This document shows, in pieces, positions 42,578-59,193 of a DNA stretch of 64,000 nucleotides. The notes beneath the pieces are model-generated. The model had not been told where the DNA came from. It worked only from the letters and a program-made list of their open reading frames with translations, and did no database searches. The position numbers were made by a program, and so were the translations under genes. Numbering within the stretch: position 1 is the stretch's first letter; each line of letters opens with the position of its first letter. This DNA comes from an uncultured Bacteroidota bacterium (GTDB lineage: Bacteria; Bacteroidota; Bacteroidia; Chitinophagales; Chitinophagaceae): contig CAIVEH010000119.1 of NCBI GenBank assembly GCA_903904855.1, forward strand, positions 1 through 64,000, read 5' to 3'.

Positions 42578-43144
42578 TCAGGGTGCCGCTACAGATTTCA
42601 TTTTCTTTTCAAATAACCGGGTAAGTATGTTTTTTTCTTCTGTTACTATTTCAGCCGTACCGTAAATAACTTTTGAGCCAGGAAACTTGCTACTGATAAC
42701 CGATTTGCCTGCTGCTGTTATTCGGATATCGGCAACGGGTGGCAGACTCTCCACTGCACTTTGCGGAAGGTTGATAACACCCTCAATAACACTACTTTCG
42801 TTGGCTGAATAATTGCTGATTTTTATAGTGACTTTATCATTATTTCTTAGCTTCTTAAAGTCAATTGCAGACAAAGCAGCGCTGGCATTTATTTCATTTC
42901 CGGTCATTTTAATCACGCATTTTGCTTCAACGGTGTCCCGGTATTTGAAAAAATAAGCTCCTGAGATCATTAGAAGGAATACCATAATCAGAACTAGCAT
43001 ACCACCCTTGAAAATCCACGAAGGCATGAGCCCTATTGTTTCTGTTATATCATCTGACTCGGGCTCTTGTATCAGCTCACCAGTGCTGCTTACCAGCAAC
43101 AACTTATCAGTATGTATAATGTTATCCGAATATTTTACCGTCAT
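42578..43144 (-). CDS. Short HlyD-like periplasmic adaptor of the lanthipeptide exporter
   Basis: Single TM, C-terminal GTAEIVTEEKNILTRLFEKKM typical of HlyD adaptors; adjacent to the C39-ABC transporter. Confidence 0.75.
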   Translation of the reverse strand: MTVKYSDNIIHTDKLLLVSSTGELIQEPESDDITETIGLMPSWIFKGGMLVLIMVFLLMISGAYFFKYRDTVEAKCVIKMTGNEINASAALSAIDFKKLRNNDKVTIKISNYSANESSVIEGVINLPQSAVESLPPVADIRITAAGKSVISSKFPGSKVIYGTAEIVTEEKNILTRLFEKKMKSVAAP

Positions 43145-43154
43145 CTTAATGTAT

Positions 43155-45380
43155 TTAGTTTCCTAGTTCAAGTTGATTCCTGATCAATTCGTAATAGTTG
43201 CCTTTTTTCAGGGAAAGGTTGGCATGAGTACCAACTTCAACTATTTTACCTTTTTCCAATACTATTATCTGGTCTGCATGTTTTACAGTACTTAATCTAT
43301 GTGCTATTACCACAACTGTCTTGTTTACGAAAAATTCATCCAGATTATTCATAATAATCCGCTCATTATTGGTATCAAGTGAGCTTGTAGCCTCGTCAAA
43401 AAACAGGTAAGACGGATTTTTATATACAGCCCGTGCAATAAGTATTCTTTGCTTCTGTCCGCTGCTAATACCATTGCCGGTGTTCCCTATCTTCGTGTTG
43501 TATTTAAGGGGCATATTTTCTATAAATTCCCGGATGTTGGCAATTTCTGCGGCCTTGGCTACTCTCTCCATATCCATTTCATTCTCCTTTACTGCAATGT
43601 TTTTCGCCATAGTATCCGAAAATATATAACCATCCTGCATCACAGATCCACATTGGTTGCGCCACCATCTTGGCGAAATACCATTCAGGTTCGTATCTCC
43701 TATGGCCAATTCTCCTGAAGTAGGTTCGTAAAATTTAAGCAGCAACTTAAGCAAGGTTGTCTTTCCGCTGCCACTGGTGCCTACTATTGCCGTTACTTTC
43801 CCTTTGGGTATTACCAGGTCGATGTCCTGCAATACAAATGGAGACTGCTTGCCTGCATACCTGAACGAAATATTCTTAAGCCTGATATCTGCTCCTTCCC
43901 ATCCGGCACCATATGATAAAAGCGTTGACTTCTTAGTTACTGGGTCTATTGGTTCCTCGTCTTCTTTGCTATGTATTTCGCTGATACGGTCTAAACTCAA
44001 TTTGGCATCCTGAACTGCCTGGGTAAGCCCAAGTAATTGTCCGATGGGGCCATTTAATTGTCCTACTATATAGCTTACACTCATCATCATTCCAAGGCTC
44101 ATATTACCTGTGATAACTTCTTTAGCTGTAATGTACGAAATAAATATATTTTTAAGCTGCGTAAAGATAAATGACCCCATTTCCTGGTATTGACCTAGCG
44201 CCATTCCCTGTATGCTTACTTTGTAAATATTTGCCTGTGCCTTTTCCCAATCTTTGCGCTTTTCGGTTTCGCAGTTGTTAAGTTTTATTTCCTGCATACC
44301 TGTTATAAGCTCATACATTACATTTTGATTTTCACTGGAACTTTGAAACCGGGCATAGTCAATTTCTTTCCGTTTCTTTAGGAAGAACAATATCCAGATG
44401 GTTGAAAATGTACTGAAAATAAAAAATACACAAATTATTTTCCAGCTATATGCAGTCAATATCCCAACAAATATAATCAGATTTGTAAATGAGAAAATCG
44501 TAGATAGGGTAGTCCCCGTTAAAAAGCTTTGAACACGCTGATGGTCGGCTATTCTTTGCTGTATATCTCCCATCATTTTTATATCGAAAAATCGTATGGG
44601 CAATTTCATTAATTTTATTAAAAAATCAGAAATTATTTTAATGTTTACCCGAGTGTTCATGTGTAGTACTACCCAATTCCTGATCATTTCAATTATTGTG
44701 CTCCCCGTAAACAGAAATAACTGAGAAATCAAAACGAGGTATACAAATGACAAATTTCGCTGGCCGATTCCTCTGTCTACCAATAATTGCGTTAGAAACG
44801 GAAATACCAGCGATAATAAGCTACCCAGCAACATGCTGCACAACAACTGAACAATGTACTTTTTGTAGGGAATAAAATATTTCAGGAAAAATAGTAATCC
44901 CTTCTGACGGCGGTTCTTTTCATAATTCTCCTTTATTTTATAGAATTCTTCAGTTGGCTCAAGCATTAATGCTACTCCCTCCGTATTTTCTGATCCCTGC
45001 CAGCATTTTAAAAAAGTTGCCTTATCTATTCTCATCAGACCATGTGCAGGGTCTGCAACCAATATTTTATCCCGTTTCTTATTTCGGTCATAATTTTGAG
45101 GCGGTATAACTACAAAATGATTATTGTTCCAATGTAAAATGCACGGTAAAATAGTTTGCTCATCAAGTAGTTCAAATGTCAGTTTTGCCGAGAATGTCTT
45201 AAATCCCAGCTCCTCCGCGGCTTCACTGATGCCAGCAATACTTACTCCTTCCCGGGTAATATTGGATAATTTACGTAAATGATCCAATGGATAGTCTTTA
45301 CCGTAAAATTTCGATACCATCCTTAAGCAGGTGGGTCCGCAATCCATTGAATCATGCTGTCTGAATGTCTGAAAACTCAT
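43155..45380 (-). CDS. Peptidase C39-domain ABC transporter (bacteriocin exporter/double-Gly leader peptidase)
   Basis: HDSMDCGPTCLRMVSKFYG, CILHWNNNHFVVI (C39), Walker A VGTSGSGKTTLLKL, SSGQKQRILIARAVYKNPSYLFFDEATSSLD. Confidence 0.96.
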   Translation of the reverse strand: MSFQTFRQHDSMDCGPTCLRMVSKFYGKDYPLDHLRKLSNITREGVSIAGISEAAEELGFKTFSAKLTFELLDEQTILPCILHWNNNHFVVIPPQNYDRNKKRDKILVADPAHGLMRIDKATFLKCWQGSENTEGVALMLEPTEEFYKIKENYEKNRRQKGLLFFLKYFIPYKKYIVQLLCSMLLGSLLSLVFPFLTQLLVDRGIGQRNLSFVYLVLISQLFLFTGSTIIEMIRNWVVLHMNTRVNIKIISDFLIKLMKLPIRFFDIKMMGDIQQRIADHQRVQSFLTGTTLSTIFSFTNLIIFVGILTAYSWKIICVFFIFSTFSTIWILFFLKKRKEIDYARFQSSSENQNVMYELITGMQEIKLNNCETEKRKDWEKAQANIYKVSIQGMALGQYQEMGSFIFTQLKNIFISYITAKEVITGNMSLGMMMSVSYIVGQLNGPIGQLLGLTQAVQDAKLSLDRISEIHSKEDEEPIDPVTKKSTLLSYGAGWEGADIRLKNISFRYAGKQSPFVLQDIDLVIPKGKVTAIVGTSGSGKTTLLKLLLKFYEPTSGELAIGDTNLNGISPRWWRNQCGSVMQDGYIFSDTMAKNIAVKENEMDMERVAKAAEIANIREFIENMPLKYNTKIGNTGNGISSGQKQRILIARAVYKNPSYLFFDEATSSLDTNNERIIMNNLDEFFVNKTVVVIAHRLSTVKHADQIIVLEKGKIVEVGTHANLSLKKGNYYELIRNQLELGN

Positions 45381-48300
45381 ACTGCCTGGGCTTTTTCTTT
45401 TATTGCATGAATTGAAGTATAATATTTATGTAGCAGGTGGTATGATGTCAGTTCGTATTTCCTGTTTTCAGAATGAAATAGCCTGTTCATAAACATATGC
45501 AGGTAACTCGGCATTAACTCATCTATTATATTTACTGAGTTACCTGCTTCTTTTATCTTCTTAAATACGGGTATATTCTGAATTGACCTTTCCTGGATTA
45601 CCGATTTATATTTATCTAATTCCTGGTTGTCAGACTTGAAAATGGCAAAAATTGGATCTTTTAAATTTCTGTACTTATCGTTCAAACTCCTTTGCAATGC
45701 CAGGCTTCCTCCGAATTCTGTAAAAAACCTTTTCTGCAACATGGTAGCCATCTCCAGTTTCTTTTTCAAATCATACCCTGCATCATTCATTAAAGCATCA
45801 ATAGCAATTAAGGCTATATTCCACCTTAATCTGTCCTCCGAATGTTCATTTATAAGATGGAGAATACTTAAATTAGCAAGGCTGTCATAATAAAATATAC
45901 TTTCAGAATCATCTATTGCCTTGCCACCATAGCGCTCTATTTCCCGCTCATAAGTATCTATCTGTAATTTACTGACCAATTTATCTTTGATTTGTTTATT
46001 AATACACTTTTTCATCATCTGAGAAACACTCAGAAAATTTTCTTCTTTCTTTAATTTAAATCGTACGCGTAAATGGAAATCCGGATCGGAGTATCTGATA
46101 AAGAAAAATTTATCTATTAGGCCCTTCTTCTTCAGAGACCCTACCAGTTTTTTAATAGTGCCATGTAATAATTCTTCCCCTGCATTCTGGCTACAGTATA
46201 TCTTATAAAATGCCCATTCCTCGCCTGGTACGAATACCCTTTTTATTTGGGCAATTTCATTTTCTGCAATTTTGAGACTCCCATTGTTTACGGTAGCTTC
46301 AATTTTAAGGGGTATCAGCAATTCGTTAGTATAACTGCCCTGGGCGCTTTTAATAAATGATTGCTTTTCATCTCCAAAAAATTCACACAGTGTTACAGCA
46401 CTGTGTTTTTCAATATAACCAATCAATATTTTTATGGAGTCCGCATAATTAAAATTTATAAGCAACTCATTATCTGATTGCTGAAACACCAGCAATTCAG
46501 GCATATGCCGCCTCGTCCTTAGTTTTGTAATAAACTCCTGGATTTCATTATCTTTCTTAGGCAAATTTGCAATATCATCTTTTGTTATTTTCCAGGTCGC
46601 TCTTTTTAATATAATGTTTTTATATGTTATCCTCGGGCTGAATGTCGGATTCGAACTAACCATATTGGCCCAGCTGATCCCACCAAAACATTGCTGATTC
46701 TGCAAATCGCAAAGAAATTTATATAACGGCAGACTGTTCATACTGTAATTGAGCGCTGTCGTAAATCTTGGGATAACTCTTTTTTTCAGCTTCTTGCTCA
46801 TCAGAATTATTTCACCACCCGATACCTTCACCATCAGATCGGTTATAGATAACTGATACTCTCTGGCTATTCCTGAATTGCCCAGATAAGGTATTTCATA
46901 GGCTCTGAGTAATGGCCTGGATATTATATTGCCAAGGCGCTCTTGTGGCAGATGCACGATTTCTGCAAATACTATATCCTGTGGCAATGATTGCTCTTCG
47001 TTTCTTGTCAGCGAACAAATCCAGTTTTCTATATCCTTATCTAGGTGGCTGAATCTTGCAAGTAAATTGGCATAAGATGTGCCTCCCAGCGATTTTATCA
47101 GAAACTTGAAGGATCCTTCTTCTGGGCTACCTTCGCTTGTTCCAAACAAACTGCCCATCATATAAACACTTTGCTGCAGACCAAAAGTGAATGGGAATGT
47201 TATTTTCTTCCCTTCTTTGATATTTATCTCTTTTGAGGTAATATCAATAGGATCATAATTTAATTGGAGTGAATCATTGAATTTGGTCTGTGCAATTTCA
47301 GCTATCGGGAATCCCTTTTCTGGTGTATCTGATGTGAAATTGAGATCACCGATAAAAGCATTAATGTTTTTGGAGAACTGACCATACCCTATGCCATTTT
47401 CAACATCAAGGGCATGGCTCAGTGGTATGGTTTGATTTTCATATTTTGCCGAAAATTGTTTGATAAATCTATCCAGGCTTTCCGGAATACCTGGCTTTTT
47501 ATACGAAGCATAAACCAGCTCATTTATCTGCTGGAGTATAGTGTCTATTACATTTTTAGAAATAGTGTTACTTTCAGTAGTAACTTTCAGGTCACACTGA
47601 AACAAAGTTTTTACTGCAGTTTTAATGCCTGCCGCATCTATCTGTTTGATTATATGTTCTAGTTCGGCCGGCTCATAATTATTATTTTGTAGTGTATTAT
47701 GTATTTGGGTTAATAACTGTGTGTAATTTTCAGTATGCTCGTATTTACTCAGTTGTTTACATAATGTATCAAATGGTTCTTCACCTGTTAGCGTAGGTTC
47801 CAGCTCACTTGTCAGCAGTTGCATACCTATTACATTGTTTATATAGGCCTGCGCTTCAGTTTCATCTATATCATATTGCATCAACAGGTGTACTAAATCT
47901 TTAATTGTGGCTCCCTTTCTGCAGAAATTTATTATTTCCTTCAGGTAAGGTGTTATCTCTGCTTCAGATAGCAAATAACTTCTTTTACCATGGAAATTAT
48001 AGCGCACATATCGGTATTGGTCGCCAAACGAATAAAGAGAATTATTTACAAAATAAATAATCTGCACCCTGATTTGCTCATCCTTATATATCTGGTCAAG
48101 TACTTTATGTATCAGGTCCATATCCAGCCTGCATACTGGTTCAAATTCGGTTGGCTGTTTTAAATAAATATCAGTCTTGTCTCCGAAAGTACCTAGCGAG
48201 CAACCTGCAAAATTGGCATACGGCGTGCATCTTGTACTGGCGCGAAGCCAGTATTTCTGTATAGAATTTATCATTTTGGGCGTTACTTTACCGCTCTCCA

Positions 48301-48469
48301 GTTGCCGGGTATATTCATCCAGCAGGTCTTTGGAGGCTATATAAAGCCCATACCTGAATTCAGGCCTGTTCATAATTAAACTTATATCTTCTTTAAAACA
48401 GTTGTCAGTAAACTGTAGTGGATACAAGGGAGTACGTAAAAAATAATGATTCCCAACAAGTTTTAGCAT
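45377..48469 (-). CDS. lanB: Class I lanthipeptide dehydratase (LanB), N-terminal dehydratase fused to C-terminal SpaB_C domain
   Basis: WLRASTRCTPYANFAGCSLGTFG; C-term EEWAFYKIYCSQNAGEELLHGTIKKLVGSLKKKGLIDKFFFIRYSDPDFHLRVRF; 4-bp overlap with the transporter gene. Confidence 0.93.
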   Translation of the reverse strand: MLKLVGNHYFLRTPLYPLQFTDNCFKEDISLIMNRPEFRYGLYIASKDLLDEYTRQLESGKVTPKMINSIQKYWLRASTRCTPYANFAGCSLGTFGDKTDIYLKQPTEFEPVCRLDMDLIHKVLDQIYKDEQIRVQIIYFVNNSLYSFGDQYRYVRYNFHGKRSYLLSEAEITPYLKEIINFCRKGATIKDLVHLLMQYDIDETEAQAYINNVIGMQLLTSELEPTLTGEEPFDTLCKQLSKYEHTENYTQLLTQIHNTLQNNNYEPAELEHIIKQIDAAGIKTAVKTLFQCDLKVTTESNTISKNVIDTILQQINELVYASYKKPGIPESLDRFIKQFSAKYENQTIPLSHALDVENGIGYGQFSKNINAFIGDLNFTSDTPEKGFPIAEIAQTKFNDSLQLNYDPIDITSKEINIKEGKKITFPFTFGLQQSVYMMGSLFGTSEGSPEEGSFKFLIKSLGGTSYANLLARFSHLDKDIENWICSLTRNEEQSLPQDIVFAEIVHLPQERLGNIISRPLLRAYEIPYLGNSGIAREYQLSITDLMVKVSGGEIILMSKKLKKRVIPRFTTALNYSMNSLPLYKFLCDLQNQQCFGGISWANMVSSNPTFSPRITYKNIILKRATWKITKDDIANLPKKDNEIQEFITKLRTRRHMPELLVFQQSDNELLINFNYADSIKILIGYIEKHSAVTLCEFFGDEKQSFIKSAQGSYTNELLIPLKIEATVNNGSLKIAENEIAQIKRVFVPGEEWAFYKIYCSQNAGEELLHGTIKKLVGSLKKKGLIDKFFFIRYSDPDFHLRVRFKLKKEENFLSVSQMMKKCINKQIKDKLVSKLQIDTYEREIERYGGKAIDDSESIFYYDSLANLSILHLINEHSEDRLRWNIALIAIDALMNDAGYDLKKKLEMATMLQKRFFTEFGGSLALQRSLNDKYRNLKDPIFAIFKSDNQELDKYKSVIQERSIQNIPVFKKIKEAGNSVNIIDELMPSYLHMFMNRLFHSENRKYELTSYHLLHKYYTSIHAIKEKAQAV

Positions 48470-48481
48470 AGTTTATTAAAT

Positions 48482-49741
48482 TTATAAGTTCAACAAAAAC
48501 ATTTCATCCCAATCTGGTCTTACTTCTGCCATCGCGCTCAGCAATGTAAGTCCTATTCCTGCTGTACCCGAAATAATATTTGTTTTATCTGACCAAAGCG
48601 TTATTTTTTTCTCCATAATATGGATTTTTAACACATCATCTTCCATCTTTACTTTTGGAAATATGTTCTTAAACCAGAAATCAGCTATTTCACGGTAATT
48701 TTCATTGCCGGTCATATTATACAACCGGTTGAATATATGGCCATTCCCACACATTCCATGACAAAAACTTCCATCAAATGTATATTGGAAATTTTCATAA
48801 TTATGATCGACTATGTACTTGAATAAATATTCTGCTTCTATTTTATATCTTTCATCTGGTATCACTTTATATGCATAGTGCAATGCTATTGCAATATCAA
48901 TATCTCCATAGCACCAGGCAATTCTTCCGGAACCATTAGGTTGCTCTGATATATCGTCTCTGTAACTGAATGGATATAAGCTGGAGGATCCGGGTTTTAG
49001 TTTTTTGTCCAATACAAAATTTACTACCTGTTCAATCAGTTTTTTGCACTTTTCTTGTGCTATCCCTTGTTCCCAGATTTTTGATAATACAGCGATAATT
49101 GAAGGCATTCCATGCGATAAACCCATCGAAATCCCTTTCTCATCTATTTTTTCAAAATCAATGATATAATACCACCATGCCATTTCACCCCCCCGAGTGG
49201 CTGAACTTATCAGCGCATCCACCATCAGTTCAAGATAATGATCATGTTTTGCAGTTCGTCTTTTAGATTCCAAAAGCGGAGATGCCATACTTAGCCCACC
49301 ATGCATGTAGTCATAATCGGCATGTTTTATTAGTTCAATACATCCGGTACAGAAAGCATCTATCAGCTCTTCATCAATCATCGTTCCGGCATCCGGAACA
49401 ATCTCCTTATTTTCAAGGTGATACAGCATCCATAGTAATCCGGGTACGCCCGTGCAGAAACCATGCATTCTGTTCCCCGTACTGATGGCTAACAGGGTTT
49501 CCAGACCTTCCAATGCCAGGTTATATATACTTTCATCTTCATTATACTCAGCTATATAGAACAGGTAAAGCAGATCACCTGCGGTTCCTCCCATTGCTCC
49601 AACACCTTCATATTGTAATGATGAAGGGTTTTTAATAAATCCGGAAACTTTTTGCACCAGCCCGGACGTAACCTGATCCATTAATTCTTTGTAAGCTCCG
49701 GCATGTTCCGGGCTTATGACAGGAATCCACTTTTTATTCAT
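48482..49741 (-). CDS. lanC: LanC-like lanthipeptide cyclase 1
   Basis: RIAWCYGDIDIA and DGSFCHGMCGNGHIFNRLYN zinc-ligand motifs. Confidence 0.93.
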   Translation of the reverse strand: MNKKWIPVISPEHAGAYKELMDQVTSGLVQKVSGFIKNPSSLQYEGVGAMGGTAGDLLYLFYIAEYNEDESIYNLALEGLETLLAISTGNRMHGFCTGVPGLLWMLYHLENKEIVPDAGTMIDEELIDAFCTGCIELIKHADYDYMHGGLSMASPLLESKRRTAKHDHYLELMVDALISSATRGGEMAWWYYIIDFEKIDEKGISMGLSHGMPSIIAVLSKIWEQGIAQEKCKKLIEQVVNFVLDKKLKPGSSSLYPFSYRDDISEQPNGSGRIAWCYGDIDIAIALHYAYKVIPDERYKIEAEYLFKYIVDHNYENFQYTFDGSFCHGMCGNGHIFNRLYNMTGNENYREIADFWFKNIFPKVKMEDDVLKIHIMEKKITLWSDKTNIISGTAGIGLTLLSAMAEVRPDWDEMFLLNL

Positions 49742-49810: not shown

Positions 49811-51076
49811 TTATTGCAATTTAAGCAAAAATATATCATCCCAATCTGGCCTTATGTTATCCACCGCGCTGAGTAATGTAAGGCCAAGACCGGCAGTTCC
49901 CATAATTAAGTTGGTATTATCCGACCAGGTTGGTTCCTTATTTATTACACTTATAATCTTTAGCTTTTCATTTTCATATTTAACCTTTTCATCCAACTTT
50001 CCAAACCAGAAATTTGCCAGTTCTCTGAATTGTTTATTGCCGGTGTAGTTATAAAGCCTGTTAAACATATGGCCATTCCCACATGCGCCATGACAAAAAC
50101 TGCCATCGGTTGTATAGTAGGAATTAATATCGTTATGTTTCGCTATGAATTGCAATATAGAATCAGCTTGGTCCTTATATTCTTTCTTTTTTATTACTTT
50201 ATAGGCATACAATAACCCTATGGCAATATTTATATCGCCATAGCACCACGAAACTCTCCCCGAACCGCTATTAGGTATTTCTGCTTCATTATGCCTGTAC
50301 CTTGTCGGATACAATGAAGAATAACTCAGATTTAATTTTTTATCAAAAATAAAATTGATTGTTTTTTCAATTAAGTCTTTACACTCAACTACAGCTATCC
50401 CTTGCTGGCAAATTTTGCTTAGAATCGCAATTACACCCGGCAAGCCATGCGATAATCCCATAGAAACACATAACTCTTCTGGCTTTTCCTTCTCAAAAAC
50501 AGAATTCCAATAAACCTTATTGTCTTCTCGTATGGCGGTTTTGGCCAGTGCTTCCACCATCGTTGCCAGGTACTCATTCTGCCTGTCCGTTCTTCTTTTC
50601 GATTCCAGCAGCGGAATAGCCATACCTAACCCTCCGTGCATATAATCATAGTTACAATTTTCTATTTCATTAATGCAATTGATACAAAACTTATCTATCA
50701 GTTCGTCGTCTATCATTCCGCCAGCTCCAGGTATAATTTTTTTGTTTTCCAGGTGGTACAGTGTCCATACCAGGCCAGGTAATCCTGTACAAAAGGTATT
50801 AATTGTATCCTGATGTGCAACTGATACTGCCAATTCTATATTCTTTAGAGCAATATCATACAGGGCTTCATCATCTCTCCTTATGGAAGAATAAAATAAA
50901 TATAGAAGCTCCCCAGATACCCCGCCCATTACACCCATTCCCGCATTTACATAATAATAGGGATTTGATAACAGGCTTGTATACTTACTGAGTAGGCTGT
51001 CATCCACATGTTTGATCAGAGCCTCATAAGATGCTCTGTTATCCTGCTCAATTGATGGCTCCCATTTTTTTCTCAT
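49811..51076 (-). CDS. lanC: LanC-like lanthipeptide cyclase 2
   Basis: RVSWCYGDINIA and DGSFCHGACGNGHMFNRLYN. Confidence 0.93.
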   Translation of the reverse strand: MRKKWEPSIEQDNRASYEALIKHVDDSLLSKYTSLLSNPYYYVNAGMGVMGGVSGELLYLFYSSIRRDDEALYDIALKNIELAVSVAHQDTINTFCTGLPGLVWTLYHLENKKIIPGAGGMIDDELIDKFCINCINEIENCNYDYMHGGLGMAIPLLESKRRTDRQNEYLATMVEALAKTAIREDNKVYWNSVFEKEKPEELCVSMGLSHGLPGVIAILSKICQQGIAVVECKDLIEKTINFIFDKKLNLSYSSLYPTRYRHNEAEIPNSGSGRVSWCYGDINIAIGLLYAYKVIKKKEYKDQADSILQFIAKHNDINSYYTTDGSFCHGACGNGHMFNRLYNYTGNKQFRELANFWFGKLDEKVKYENEKLKIISVINKEPTWSDNTNLIMGTAGLGLTLLSAVDNIRPDWDDIFLLKLQ

Positions 51077-51275: not shown

Positions 51276-51330
51276 CCGACGAATGGTAGGTTTTTGGGTG
51301 TGAAATGCATGATTTACCCGACGAATGGAA
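51276..51330 (-). promoter_or_regulatory. Putative LytTR-type operator upstream of the lanC2-lanC1-lanB-transporter operon
   Basis: Two CCGACGAATGG repeats starting at 51276 and 51318 (42 bp apart); nearly identical to 59355-59410. Confidence 0.6.
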
Positions 51331-51686: not shown

Positions 51687-51971
51687 CTAGCAGGTAACCC
51701 AACCTTGTGTGGGAGCACAAACCATGCAAAATGCATCAGTACCCAGCTGTGTGCAGGTAACTGGCTGAGTAGGCAGGCAGGTGTCCCAACCTTGTGTTGG
51801 TGCACATACAAAACATACATCAAAAGTTCCTAATTGTGTGCATGTCGGTGCATCAGTTGGGCAGCTCTGGGTTATATAGGTTGTCTTACCCCCTGTATAT
51901 TGTCCTCCATCCAATGACGATAAGTCTTTGACTCTTATAGTAAGCTTCCCACGCAATTGTTTCTTTTTCAT
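51687..51971 (-). CDS. Lanthipeptide precursor P1 (9 Cys in the core)
   Basis: Leader MKKKQLRGKLTIRVKDLSSLDGGQYTGG; core with duplicated TCTQLGT...C.VCAPTQGW.TC unit. Confidence 0.88.
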   Translation of the reverse strand: MKKKQLRGKLTIRVKDLSSLDGGQYTGGKTTYITQSCPTDAPTCTQLGTFDVCFVCAPTQGWDTCLPTQPVTCTQLGTDAFCMVCAPTQGWVTC

Positions 51972-52002
51972 TTGAATTGATTTTATAGTTAATAACTTTT
52001 TT

Positions 52003-52078
52003 CCTACTCTTGATCACGGGTTTTCAGATTCCCCCGGCTTGCTTATTCCAGTTGCAATGCACCTTCCTGATGGCCATT
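52003..52078 (-). promoter_or_regulatory. Conserved 5' element copy 1 (upstream of P1)
   Basis: Minus strand ATGGCCATCAGGAAGGTGCATTGCAACTGGAATAAGCAAGCCGGGGGAATCTGAAAACCCGTGATCAAGAGTAGG. Confidence 0.85.
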
Positions 52079-52642: not shown

Positions 52643-52975
52643 TTAAATACAACCTTTGGCGCCTTCCTGAACAGAATGCAAACAAGCTACTCTAGGATCT
52701 AATTCCACTGTGCAGGTGAATGCCTCGGTAGGCAAGCATACCTGGCAAGTATCCCAACCTTGTGATGGGGCGCAAACAATACATACATCAATGGTACCAT
52801 ATTGTGTGCATGTATCCTGCGCTGATGGCGCACAGCCACAAACTGTTCCTGGCCGCCCAGAACATTCAAGCACGCTGCCGGTTCCACCAGCAATTTGCCC
52901 TTGTATATTACTATCCAGTGCCGACAGGTCTTTGATCTTCAGGGAAAGTTTCCCATGCAGATGTTTCTTTTTCAT
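52643..52975 (-). CDS. Lanthipeptide precursor P2 (11 Cys in the core)
   Basis: Leader MKKKHLHGKLSLKIKDLSALDSNIQGQIAGG; Cys/Thr-rich core. Confidence 0.9.
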   Translation of the reverse strand: MKKKHLHGKLSLKIKDLSALDSNIQGQIAGGTGSVLECSGRPGTVCGCAPSAQDTCTQYGTIDVCIVCAPSQGWDTCQVCLPTEAFTCTVELDPRVACLHSVQEGAKGCI

Positions 52976-53005
52976 TTGATTAAGTTATTTAGTTACTTAC
53001 TTTTT

Positions 53006-53081
53006 CCTACTCTGGATCACGGGTTTTCAGATTCCCCCGGCTTGCTTGTTTCAGTTGCAATTCACCTTCCTGATGGCCATT
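53006..53081 (-). promoter_or_regulatory. Conserved 5' element copy 2 (upstream of P2)
   Basis: Same consensus TTGCA-N-GCAAGCCGGGGGAATCTGAAAACCCGTGATCCAGAGTAGG. Confidence 0.85.
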
Positions 53082-53240: not shown

Positions 53241-53303
53241 TCTGCCGAATGTCAGGTTTCATCTGCCGAATGGTAGATTTCATCTGCCGAATGGTAATTT
53301 AAC
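53241..53303 (-). promoter_or_regulatory. Putative LytTR-type operator: three 21-bp tandem repeats upstream of P2
   Basis: TCTGCCGAATG... starts at 53241, 53262 and 53283. Confidence 0.65.
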
Positions 53304-53467: not shown

Positions 53468-54727
53468 CTATATTCTCAACAGAAACATATCATCCCAATC
53501 TGGTGTTACTTCAGCTATAGCGCTGAGAAGCGTAAGGCCAAGGCCTGCTGTCCCCATTATTACATTAGTCTCATTCGACCATGTAGGTTTGTTATTTAGC
53601 TTAACACTTATTGTTAGTGCATTATTTTCATATTTTATTCTGTCGCAAACCTTACTAAACCAATATTGAGAGGCTGCAGCTAAAGATTGATTGCCGGTAT
53701 AATTATATAACCGGTTAAACATATGCCCGTTACCACAGGCGCCATGGCAAAAACTGCCATCAAAGGTATATTGGCTATTTACTTCATTATGGGTTACTAT
53801 ATAGTTGATTATAAAATCAGCTTCTTCTTTATAATTTATATTATTCAGTGCACCATAAGCGTGCAATAATGCAAAAACCAAATCTATATCACCATAGCAC
53901 CAGGCTACTCTTCCATATCCGTTTACATTACCAATTGAGCCAATATTATAAATTTGAGGGAAAAGACAATTAAATTTATTCTCCTGCTTTTTACTGAGTA
54001 TAAAATTTATTGATTTTTCAATCAGCTCTTTACATTTGTCAATTTCAATACCCAGCTTATATATTTTCGATAAAACAGCTATGATACCTGGCAATCCATG
54101 TGCCATGCCGAATGAAACAGTTCGTTCATTTGGCTTTTCAGGATCTTTTTTATCATAAAACAAGGCTGTATTTCCATTAAATTGAGCTATCCGGTACAAA
54201 GTAGATACCATCTCGGCCAGATAATCATCCTGGTTTTTAGTCCGCTTTTCAGATTGAAGTAATGCAAGTGCCATACCGAGGCCACCATACATTAAATCGA
54301 AGTTTCCTTCAGCTATCTGATCAATTGCCAGTTTGCAGTAATGATTAATTACTTCATCATCAATCATATTTCCGGCTCCCGGAACCATATCGGTATTTTC
54401 AAGGTGGTATAAAGTCCAGAGTAACCCAGGTACTCCTGCAGCAAATGATCCTGTTGAACTTTCATCTGTAACTGAAATAAGGTTTTCAAGGCTGGTTCGG
54501 GCAAGATTATACATCTCCTGATCATCCCGGTACATCGCCGAATAGAATAAATAAACCAATTCCCCAGATGCACAAGCCATAACTCCGGCGCTCTGCCTTT
54601 TCATTTCAGCTTGGCAAGCTCCTAATGTTTTATATTTAGCTAATAAACCGGCATCCACCCAATCCAGGGTCTGGTTATATTTTGTTCTTTCTCGCAAGGG
54701 TATTAAAGGAATCCATCTTTTAACCAT
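53468..54727 (-). CDS. lanC: LanC-like lanthipeptide cyclase 3
   Basis: RVAWCYGDIDLV and DGSFCHGACGNGHMFNRLYN. Confidence 0.93.
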   Translation of the reverse strand: MVKRWIPLIPLRERTKYNQTLDWVDAGLLAKYKTLGACQAEMKRQSAGVMACASGELVYLFYSAMYRDDQEMYNLARTSLENLISVTDESSTGSFAAGVPGLLWTLYHLENTDMVPGAGNMIDDEVINHYCKLAIDQIAEGNFDLMYGGLGMALALLQSEKRTKNQDDYLAEMVSTLYRIAQFNGNTALFYDKKDPEKPNERTVSFGMAHGLPGIIAVLSKIYKLGIEIDKCKELIEKSINFILSKKQENKFNCLFPQIYNIGSIGNVNGYGRVAWCYGDIDLVFALLHAYGALNNINYKEEADFIINYIVTHNEVNSQYTFDGSFCHGACGNGHMFNRLYNYTGNQSLAAASQYWFSKVCDRIKYENNALTISVKLNNKPTWSNETNVIMGTAGLGLTLLSAIAEVTPDWDDMFLLRI

Positions 54728-55020: not shown

Positions 55021-55350
55021 TTAAGGACATAAGCCTGCTTTAGTCATTCTGCAATCAGGGGTATCCGAAATACATACAGTAAACATCTCTGGTCTAGGGT
55101 CGCCTGGCTGGGTACAGAACTGGCAGGTAATAGCAATGGACGGGTTACAATCTGCCTGGCAACTAACACCAGTTCCATTCACAATAGTAGTATTGACGTT
55201 AGTGCCTGGATTTACCAACGCACAAATGGCTACATTACAGCTGGCGGTATCTATTTCACCTCCTTTTATTTGTCCCTGTGTATTACTGCTTAATGCCGAC
55301 AGATCTTTGATCTTCAGGGAAAGTTTCCCATGCAAATGTTTCTTTTTCAT
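55021..55350 (-). CDS. Lanthipeptide precursor P3 (9 Cys in the core)
   Basis: Leader MKKKHLHGKLSLKIKDLSALSSNTQGQIKGG. Confidence 0.9.
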   Translation of the reverse strand: MKKKHLHGKLSLKIKDLSALSSNTQGQIKGGEIDTASCNVAICALVNPGTNVNTTIVNGTGVSCQADCNPSIAITCQFCTQPGDPRPEMFTVCISDTPDCRMTKAGLCP

Positions 55351-55380
55351 TTGATTAAGTTATTTAGTTTCTTATTTTTT

Positions 55381-55455
55381 CCTACTCTGGATCACGGGTT
55401 TTCAGATTCCCCCGGTTTGCCTGTTACGGATGCAATACACCTTCCCGATGATCAT
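55381..55455 (-). promoter_or_regulatory. Conserved 5' element copy 3 (upstream of P3)
   Basis: TTGCATCCGTAACAGGCAAACCGGGGGAATCTGAAAACCCGTGATCCAGAGTAGG on minus strand. Confidence 0.85.
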
Positions 55456-56034: not shown

Positions 56035-57291
56035 CTATATTCTCAGCAGGAACATATCATCCCAATCTGGTGTTACTTCAGCTATAGCGCTTAGTAGTGT
56101 AAGGCCAAGGCCGGCGATGCCCATAATTACATTGGTATTACCTGACCAGGTTTTTTCATTTTTTATTCCGGTACTAATCTTGAGGGCATTATTTTCGAAT
56201 TTTATTTTTTCATAGGCTATTCTGAACCAGTATCGGGCAGCTTCTGCCAATGCCTCATTGCCGGTATAATTATAGAGCCTGCTGAACATATGGCCATTGC
56301 CGCATGCCCCATGGCAAAAACTGCCTTCAAAAGTATACTGGGTATTAACTACATTATGTGTTAGTATATAGTCTATTATATTATCAGCTTCCTCTTTATA
56401 GCTTTTAATTTTTAACGCATTAAAGGCATGAAATAAAGCAAATGCCATATCTATGTCACCTGTACACCAGGATATTCTACCAAAGCCGTTATGACTAGCA
56501 GTACTACCCGCTTTATAAATGGGTGGGAATAAACAGCTATATTTATTTTCCAGTTTTTTGCTGATTATAAGATTTACAAATTTTTCTATAAGTTCTTTAC
56601 AACGAGCCGTAGCAATATTTTGTAAGTAAATTTTAGAAAGAATGGCAATGATACCTGACAGGCCATGGGCCATTCCAAACGATATATATTTTTCATCTGG
56701 CTTTTCCAGATCACCTTTATAACATAAAAAAGCCTGATCGCTATCAAATTGGACTTGGTGATACAAAGCATCAACCATCCCAGTCAGGTATTCATTTTGA
56801 TTTTCTGTTCTTCTTTTTGATTCTAACAATGGAAGTGCCATACCCAAACCTCCATGCATAAAATCGTAATCTCCATCAGAAATTTTTTCTATTGCTATTT
56901 GGCAATAGTGATTAATTACTTCATCATCAATCATACTGCCTGCATCCGATACAATATCAGTATTTTCCAGGTGGTATAAAGTCCATAGCAGGCCCGGCAG
57001 GCCCGAAGCAAATGAACCGGAAGAATTTTTATCAGTGACAACTATAAGTTTTTCAAGGCTATTCAGGGCCAGGTTATAGTTCTCCTGGTTATCCCAGTAA
57101 ATGGATGAATAAAATAAACAGAGCAACTCGCCTGATGCACAAGCCATAACTCCAGCCCCCAACGTGCCGATTTCAGCAGGGTTGTATGCTATAGATTTAT
57201 ATTTAGTTTTTAGACCGAAATCCACCCAGGTCAGCGCTTGCTTATATTTGTCTATAAATTCAGGCAATATTACCGGATTCCAATCACTCAT
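56035..57291 (-). CDS. lanC: LanC-like lanthipeptide cyclase 4
   Basis: RISWCTGDIDMA (T in place of Y) and EGSFCHGACGNGHMFSRLYN. Confidence 0.93.
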   Translation of the reverse strand: MSDWNPVILPEFIDKYKQALTWVDFGLKTKYKSIAYNPAEIGTLGAGVMACASGELLCLFYSSIYWDNQENYNLALNSLEKLIVVTDKNSSGSFASGLPGLLWTLYHLENTDIVSDAGSMIDDEVINHYCQIAIEKISDGDYDFMHGGLGMALPLLESKRRTENQNEYLTGMVDALYHQVQFDSDQAFLCYKGDLEKPDEKYISFGMAHGLSGIIAILSKIYLQNIATARCKELIEKFVNLIISKKLENKYSCLFPPIYKAGSTASHNGFGRISWCTGDIDMAFALFHAFNALKIKSYKEEADNIIDYILTHNVVNTQYTFEGSFCHGACGNGHMFSRLYNYTGNEALAEAARYWFRIAYEKIKFENNALKISTGIKNEKTWSGNTNVIMGIAGLGLTLLSAIAEVTPDWDDMFLLRI

Positions 57292-57386: not shown

Positions 57387-57737
57387 TCAACATTGACATT
57401 TTGAATCAAGATTCAAAGAAGCACAATATTCATAGCCAGAGAAGCAAACCTGCTGCTGACAAATTGCATCCGCTGTATCCGCATACAATTTGGTGCAATC
57501 TCTAAAACAAGTACCAGAACAATCAGCAGACACCGGACAGGGATTTGTTGGTACGCAACCGACCATTGATACTACTACATTACACAAAGGATCTCCACTG
57601 CCTGGAGGGAGGGTTCCTGGACCTCCTCCTGTTACATTTATTCCACCACCTAATACTTGCCCCTGTGTACTGCCGCTTAGTGACGACAGATCTTTTACTT
57701 TCAGGGAAAGCTTCCCATGCAAACTTTTCTTTTTCAT
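57387..57737 (-). CDS. Lanthipeptide precursor P4 (11 Cys in the core)
   Basis: Leader MKKKSLHGKLSLKVKDLSSLSGSTQGQVLGG. Confidence 0.9.
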   Translation of the reverse strand: MKKKSLHGKLSLKVKDLSSLSGSTQGQVLGGGINVTGGGPGTLPPGSGDPLCNVVVSMVGCVPTNPCPVSADCSGTCFRDCTKLYADTADAICQQQVCFSGYEYCASLNLDSKCQC

Positions 57738-57767
57738 ACGTTCTAGTTAAATAGTTATTTGTTTGTT

Positions 57768-57842
57768 CCTACTCTGGGTCACGGGTTTTCAGATTCCCCC
57801 AGCTTGCTTTTTACAGGTGCAATACACTTTCCTGATGGCCAT
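57768..57842 (-). promoter_or_regulatory. Conserved 5' element copy 4 (upstream of P4)
   Basis: TTGCACCTGTAAAAAGCAAGCTGGGGGAATCTGAAAACCCGTGACCCAGAGTAGG on minus strand. Confidence 0.85.
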
Positions 57843-58730: not shown

Positions 58731-59093
58731 CTAACAGGTTGGGATGCCTGATGGCAATGCACAAGCTACGCAATATGGATTACTCCCTTGTCCAACTGTG
58801 CACGTAACAGGTTGCGAAGGCCCACATGTGTCAACTCCTGACGGCTCCGCTATGCAATGAGCGCAAATATTAACAGACCCCCCCAATATTGTACAGGTAA
58901 CAGCACAAGATGGTGATTTTGTACAATCTACCATCATCGATTGGTCACAAGTTGTACCTGGGCATGCAGAGCAAGATTCAATCGGCCCTGATTGTCCGGT
59001 ACCGCCAGCAATTTGTCCTTGCGCATTACCGTCTAAAGCCGATAGGTCTTTGATTTTCAGGGAAAGTTTCCCATGCAAACTTTTCTTTTTCAT
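58731..59093 (-). CDS. Lanthipeptide precursor P5 (13 Cys in the core)
   Basis: Leader MKKKSLHGKLSLKIKDLSALDGNAQGQIAGG; core with two TCT...C..C....G..TC units. Confidence 0.9.
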   Translation of the reverse strand: MKKKSLHGKLSLKIKDLSALDGNAQGQIAGGTGQSGPIESCSACPGTTCDQSMMVDCTKSPSCAVTCTILGGSVNICAHCIAEPSGVDTCGPSQPVTCTVGQGSNPYCVACALPSGIPTC

Positions 59094-59122
59094 ACGTTCT
59101 AGTTAAATAGTTATTTGTTTTT

Positions 59123-59193
59123 CCTACTCTGGATCACGGGTTTTCAGATTCCCCCGGCTTGCTTTTTACAGGTGCAAGCTGTGTCCTGATGCA
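59123..59193 (-). promoter_or_regulatory. Conserved 5' element copy 5 (upstream of P5)
   Basis: GCTTGCACCTGTAAAAAGCAAGCCGGGGGAATCTGAAAACCCGTGATCCAGAGTAGG on minus strand. Confidence 0.85.

Follow-up and report, generated by a model that had tools for sequence, protein, structure and literature searches.

The window, a stretch of 64,000 nucleotides from an uncultured bacterium of the Chitinophagaceae (Bacteroidota), carries a lanthipeptide cluster in which the core of one precursor, P1, consists of two copies of a Cys/Thr module that recurs in two further precursors, P2 and P5 (Table 1). The duplication within P1 is old. We favor, with moderate confidence, the view that P1, P2, and P5 are paralogs of an ancestor with two tandem modules of about 29 residues, which was copied whole.

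Table 1. Features of the cluster in the window and of loci compared with it.
Feature	Locus	Position	Strand	Description
Exporter	window	43155..45380	-	C39 peptidase-ABC exporter, predicted to cleave after GG
LanB	window	45377..48469	-	dehydratase, full length, Lant_dehydr_N + Lant_dehydr_C
LanC1	window	48482..49741	-	cyclase
LanC2	window	49811..51076	-	cyclase
P1	window	51687..51971	-	precursor gene, 94 aa, GG leader + two-module core
P1a	window	51777..51860	-	module a, PTDAPTCTQLGTFDVCFVCAPTQGWDTC
P1b	window	51690..51773	-	module b, PTQPVTCTQLGTDAFCMVCAPTQGWVTC
P1 5'UTR RNA	window	52001..52037	-	DUF805b-like
P2	window	52643..52975	-	precursor gene, 110 aa
P2a	window	52745..52828	-	module a, PSAQDTCTQYGTIDVCIVCAPSQGWDTC
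P2b	window	52649..52732	-	module b, degenerate, PTEAFTCTVELDPRVACLHSVQEGAKGC
P2 5'UTR RNA	window	53004..53040	-	DUF805b-like
LanC3	window	53468..54727	-	cyclase, adjoins P3 downstream
P3	window	55021..55350	-	precursor, leader as in other precursors, core unrelated
P3 5'UTR RNA	window	55379..55415	-	DUF805b-like
LanC4	window	56035..57291	-	cyclase, adjoins P4 downstream
P4	window	57387..57737	-	precursor, leader as in other precursors, core unrelated
P4 5'UTR RNA	window	57766..57802	-	DUF805b-like
P5	window	58731..59093	-	precursor gene, 120 aa
P5a	window	58824..58913	-	module a, PSCAVTCTILGGSVNICAHCIAEPSGVDTC
P5b	window	58734..58820	-	module b, PSQPVTCTVGQGSNPYCVACALPSGIPTC
P5 5'UTR RNA	window	59121..59157	-	DUF805b-like
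Precursor	G035 L068	8680-8901		core repeat DSICVFCTPTFTQQPV/DSLCVFCTPTSTQPGY
RNA	L052	13452-13484		DUF805b-like hit
RNA	L053	14798-14834		DUF805b-like hit
RNA	L067	8514-8549		DUF805b-like hit
RNA	L072	6645-6680		DUF805b-like hit
RNA	L084	1800, 2148		DUF805b-like hits
RNA	L086	17950, 18296, 18648		DUF805b-like hits
RNA	L088	556		DUF805b-like hit
RNA	L089	18814		DUF805b-like hit
RNA	L147			DUF805b-like
RNA	L148			DUF805b-like

In order of transcription the cluster, which lies on the minus strand, reads P5, P4, LanC4, P3, LanC3, P2, P1, LanC2, LanC1, LanB, and the C39-ABC exporter. LanB combines PF04738 (E 7e-120) and PF14028 (E 5e-63), the glutamylation and elimination domains, in a single protein of 1030 aa, and the exporter matched PF03412 (E 7e-33). 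LanC1 and LanC2 were recognized by PF05147, and LanC3 and LanC4 by a LanM C-terminal match (Pfam, NCBIfam). An alignment of the four paralogs showed WC(Y/T)GD and CHG, the established zinc-ligand motifs of LanC, in each of them. A full-length LanB accompanied by separate LanCs with the Cys and Cys-His ligands marks the cluster as class I; all five leaders end in GG and a C39 peptidase is encoded alongside, as in the GG-leader members of that class. A 188-aa protein encoded after the exporter (42578-43144, minus strand) had no Pfam or NCBIfam match.

The leaders of P2 to P5 matched lant_leader_L1a (NF038153) end to end at 17.7-19.6 bits, below the curated cut-off of 22 bits, while the P1 leader did not match this model. 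The leader sequence LSLKIKDLSAL keeps the spacing of LxLxKx5L with I/V in place of K, a departure from the motif itself. It could be argued from the cysteine-rich cores, the missing family match of P1 and the low scores of the other leaders that the precursors are ordinary disulfide-rich secreted peptides and the repeat a disulfide domain. This is very improbable, as the P2 to P5 leaders fit the family model over its whole length, the precursor genes are interleaved with one LanB and four LanC genes, and similar leaders adjoin the closest LanB relatives. Judged from gene content and leaders, P1 to P5 are predicted to be the peptides that this class I lanthipeptide cluster modifies.

A preliminary description of this DNA had reported an internal duplication of 87 bp (29 codons) in P1, and our analysis bears this out. 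The two units, which are displaced by exactly 29 codons, agree at 18 of 23 amino acids and 50 of 69 nucleotides. None of 20,000 composition-preserving shuffles of the core reached 18 matching residues (the best had 12), which rules out chance similarity as the source of the repeat. All of the sequences quoted in that description are present on the minus strand, and the window contains exactly three copies of the 12-mer CCCAACCTTGTG, two in P1 (51698 and 51785) and, as had been stated, one in P2 (52753). The shared unit that it had proposed, TCT-x(n)-C-x2-C-x(n)-G-x2-TC, is real but too short: when the alignment was extended outward the unit began earlier, at P-[ST]-x3-T-C-T, and took the form P[ST]x3-TCT-x(2,3)-G[ST]-x3-C-x2-C-x(4,5)-Gx2TC, with a length of 28-30 residues. 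A homologous Cys/Thr module with conserved spacing of donors and cysteines is indeed repeated both within and between precursors; P1 and P5 each have two intact copies and P2 has one, to which it adds a degenerate copy.

The two units of P5 are diverged, as described. P2 had been credited with one unit, and that copy is clear, but the gene also begins a second (LPTEAFTCTV...), which is degenerate behind TCT and whose linker can be aligned with P1 at the DNA level. Scores of P2b against the other modules were reached by 7 to 201 of 2000 shuffles, weak support when taken alone. The core alignments P1-P2, P1-P5, and P2-P5 each beat 1000 of 1000 shuffles, and all three genes have a linker after the first module (LPTQPV in P1, LPTEAF in P2, and GPSQPV in P5). 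Since P2 carries both the linker and the start of a second unit, P1, P2, and P5 all look like two-module precursors. Alignment of the P3 and P4 cores against shuffles detected no relation to the module.

Comparison of P1a with P1b gave a dN of 0.24, a dS of 1.55 (about 1.6) and a pS of 0.66, rough estimates from 28 codons. P1a is nearer to P2a (62 of 84 nt, 74%) than to P1b (58 of 84 nt, 69%), and this, together with silent sites near saturation, indicates that the P1 duplication is old. The low replacement divergence over the same interval indicates that the module has been under selection since then. The tandem duplication claimed earlier therefore stands as an intragenic event at some point in the past but not as a recent origin of the P1 pair; Tandem Repeats Finder did not call the array.

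Independent duplications are expected to leave same-position and cross similarity equal, while a simple ancestral duplication is expected to make same-position similarity the highest. In the P1/P5 quartet, same-position pairs (a-a plus b-b) shared 95 identities compared to 82 for the cross pairs (bootstrap 0.99), and the within-gene pairs were the most alike, with 104. These data match neither expectation cleanly; they fit a two-module ancestor with some homogenization, and the high within-gene similarity means that either homogenization or independent duplications are needed in addition. One possibility is that P1 and P5 underwent separate intragenic tandem duplications from one-module ancestors and that P2 is a one-module gene with an unrelated tail. 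The within-gene excess would agree with this, and amino-acid trees join P5a with P5b and hold P1a, P1b, and P2a together. We nevertheless consider it unlikely, because it does not predict the excess of same-position over cross similarity, linker and module order are common to the three genes, and the DNA alignment of P2 with P1 spans the linker and reaches the second module. Among the six-module topologies compared none was rejected; with the five modules other than P2b, an amino-acid AU test disfavored the purely positional tree (p 0.04).

Another possibility, close to the earlier proposal that modules were shuffled between precursors, is shuffling or gene conversion between neighboring genes, such as an exchange between P1a and P2a. 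The greater closeness of P1a to P2a than to P1b is what such an exchange would produce. On the other hand, P1 and P2 are about equally identical in leader (71%) and module (74%), so that no recent exchanged tract is needed, and the alignment shows no evident sharp recombination edge. Whole-gene duplication of a two-module ancestor would account for the module order and linker that the genes have in common and for their same-position similarity, and we regard shuffling as quite improbable. The data are better explained by wholesale copying of such an ancestor, with some homogenization, than by a recent tandem duplication combined with shuffling. By this history an intragenic duplication would have given rise to the ancestral two-module core, and the gene would then have been duplicated whole, its leader and 5'UTR included; both of these are common to all five precursor genes. 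Amino-acid selection, perhaps aided by a degree of gene conversion, would have kept the P1 copies alike; the P5 modules would have diverged and the second copy in P2 decayed.

Other Bacteroidetes precursors, to which the preliminary description had pointed as a place to seek the module, yielded none: an alignment of P1, P2, and P5 searched against 398 other genomes of the order found no relative of the module and a single leader-only match, in G227. In the named genomes, the precursor-alignment search gave no confirmed relative and the LanB search only relatives 29-36% identical. LanB had a match in 46 of 399 genomes of the family, the window's own included, and in none of the same-genus genomes listed. 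Its best relatives were in G227 (45% identical) and G391 (42%), whose precursor cores gave no signal against the module in a shuffle test. Because these searches supplied no outside relative, the module cannot be rooted.

Significant internal core repeats were found by shuffling in 5 of the 55 precursors examined (P1, P5, two from G035, and one from G468), so core repetition is recurrent but not common. The strongest cases were P1 and one G035 gene. Like P1, the precursors at G035 L068, G035 L183, and G468 L184 combine lanthipeptide-type leaders with significant core repeats; their periods are 16, 30, and 8 residues, respectively, and their sequences are independent. The L068 precursor, with its 16-residue core duplication and C-x2-C-TPT, weakly resembles P1 and P2a through C-x2-C-[AT]P[TS] (2 to 19 of 1000 shuffles). 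G035, G489, and G576, all of genus g2, each have at least 25 lanthipeptide-leader genes spread over many contigs.

In the phylogeny all four LanCs fall into a single clade (support 99), a monophyletic expansion within the cluster; LanC3 and LanC4 are its closest pair, at 65% identity. These two genes stand immediately downstream of P3 and P4, respectively. No other pair of leaders is as little diverged at silent sites as those of P3 and P4 (dS 0.46). These observations suggest that precursor and cyclase were copied together as cassettes. Among the loci of relatives that were examined, none had more than one LanC per LanB except in G576, where two neighboring LanB genes are surrounded by three LanCs. 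With four cyclases and one dehydratase, the cluster permits tests of cyclase-precursor pairing.

Two donor-acceptor spacings are kept in P1a, P1b, P2a, P5a, and P5b: the unit opens with [ST]-x4-C, and [ST]-x3-C precedes C-x2-C. On sequence grounds these are the likeliest rings. With a third, [ST]-x4/5-C, closing the unit, each module offers three obvious candidate thioether rings. Ser/Thr residues would be glutamylated and eliminated by LanB, and at least one of the four LanCs would then join Cys to the resulting dehydro residues. Cleavage after GG and secretion by the C39 exporter would yield a peptide in which two similar ring domains follow each other, possibly with an antagonistic function. 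If both modules form the same rings, this would be a natural two-domain lanthipeptide that tests LanB and LanC on repeated substrates.

The 5'UTRs of P1 to P5 are nearly identical and match the Rfam family DUF805b (RF02914) end to end at 28.2-33.8 bits, below its gathering score of 35.6. The genome as a whole has 33 DUF805b matches, 16 of them above that score. Across 23 of its copies, which had been chosen with the Rfam model, the putative stem comprised only three pairs, each of which showed double changes. A pattern search on primary sequence had made the 5'UTR appear unique to this genome, a reading that we dropped because covariance models found copies elsewhere. A model built exclusively from copies outside the window recovered the five copies of the window and gave additional hits next to LanB relatives; for 11 of these additional hits, a small precursor-like gene has its ATG 20-24 nt downstream. 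The genes behind the hits in L052, L053, L067, and L072 have lanthipeptide-type leaders (that of L053 under the cut-off), and those in L084, L086, L088, and L089 encode GG-type peptides. The best hits in G035 and G576 precede the ATG of lanthipeptide-leader genes by 25-28 nt; overall, the distance from RNA to start codon is about 20-28 nt in P1 to P5 and in precursors from other genera.

DUF805b is not a universal lanthipeptide element, since a minority of 30 loci sampled by leader family carry it. Its other targets in this genome, judged by eye, are lipase-like, lectin-like, and other exported or small proteins. The Rfam entry describes it only as a cis-regulatory RNA, whereas here it precedes lanthipeptide genes; a literature search within a limited collection found no paper on it. 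The link gives an orphan RNA family concrete target genes and a testable regulon, and it may prove the more useful lead.

Direct repeats of CGACGAAYGG, 42 bp apart, occur at 51277/51319 and 59356/59398, and others at 53245/53266/53287 (21 bp apart) and 55649/55669 (20 bp apart). Spaced by about two or four helical turns, they lie some 200-300 bp upstream of LanC2, P5, P2, and P3. The sequences GACGAACGGT and ACCGTTCGTC are complements, and the latter resembles a LytTR/AlgR-type site. The repeats are probably transcription-factor sites.

It could be speculated that the cluster represents a family of bivalent lanthipeptides, each bearing one ring domain twice in tandem, whose cyclases duplicated and specialized with their precursors, and that DUF805b exerts family-wide control over secreted peptides and exoproteins; we offer this only tentatively, as a doubtful extension. 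Class I lanthipeptides of Bacteroidetes whose GG leaders follow LxLxKx5L have been described (Walker et al. 2020, PMC7268733). Like them, the cluster in the window combines LanB, LanC, and a C39 exporter with GG leaders and diverse Cys/Thr cores; it differs in having I/V for K, four LanC paralogs, and two-module cores in three precursors. The pinensins of Chitinophaga pinensis, as cited in PMC7268733, are class I lanthipeptides from the same phylum that use a split LanB; the LanB in the window, a single full-length protein of 1030 aa, is not of that split type. The cluster is a variant of the known Bacteroidota class I lanthipeptide type.
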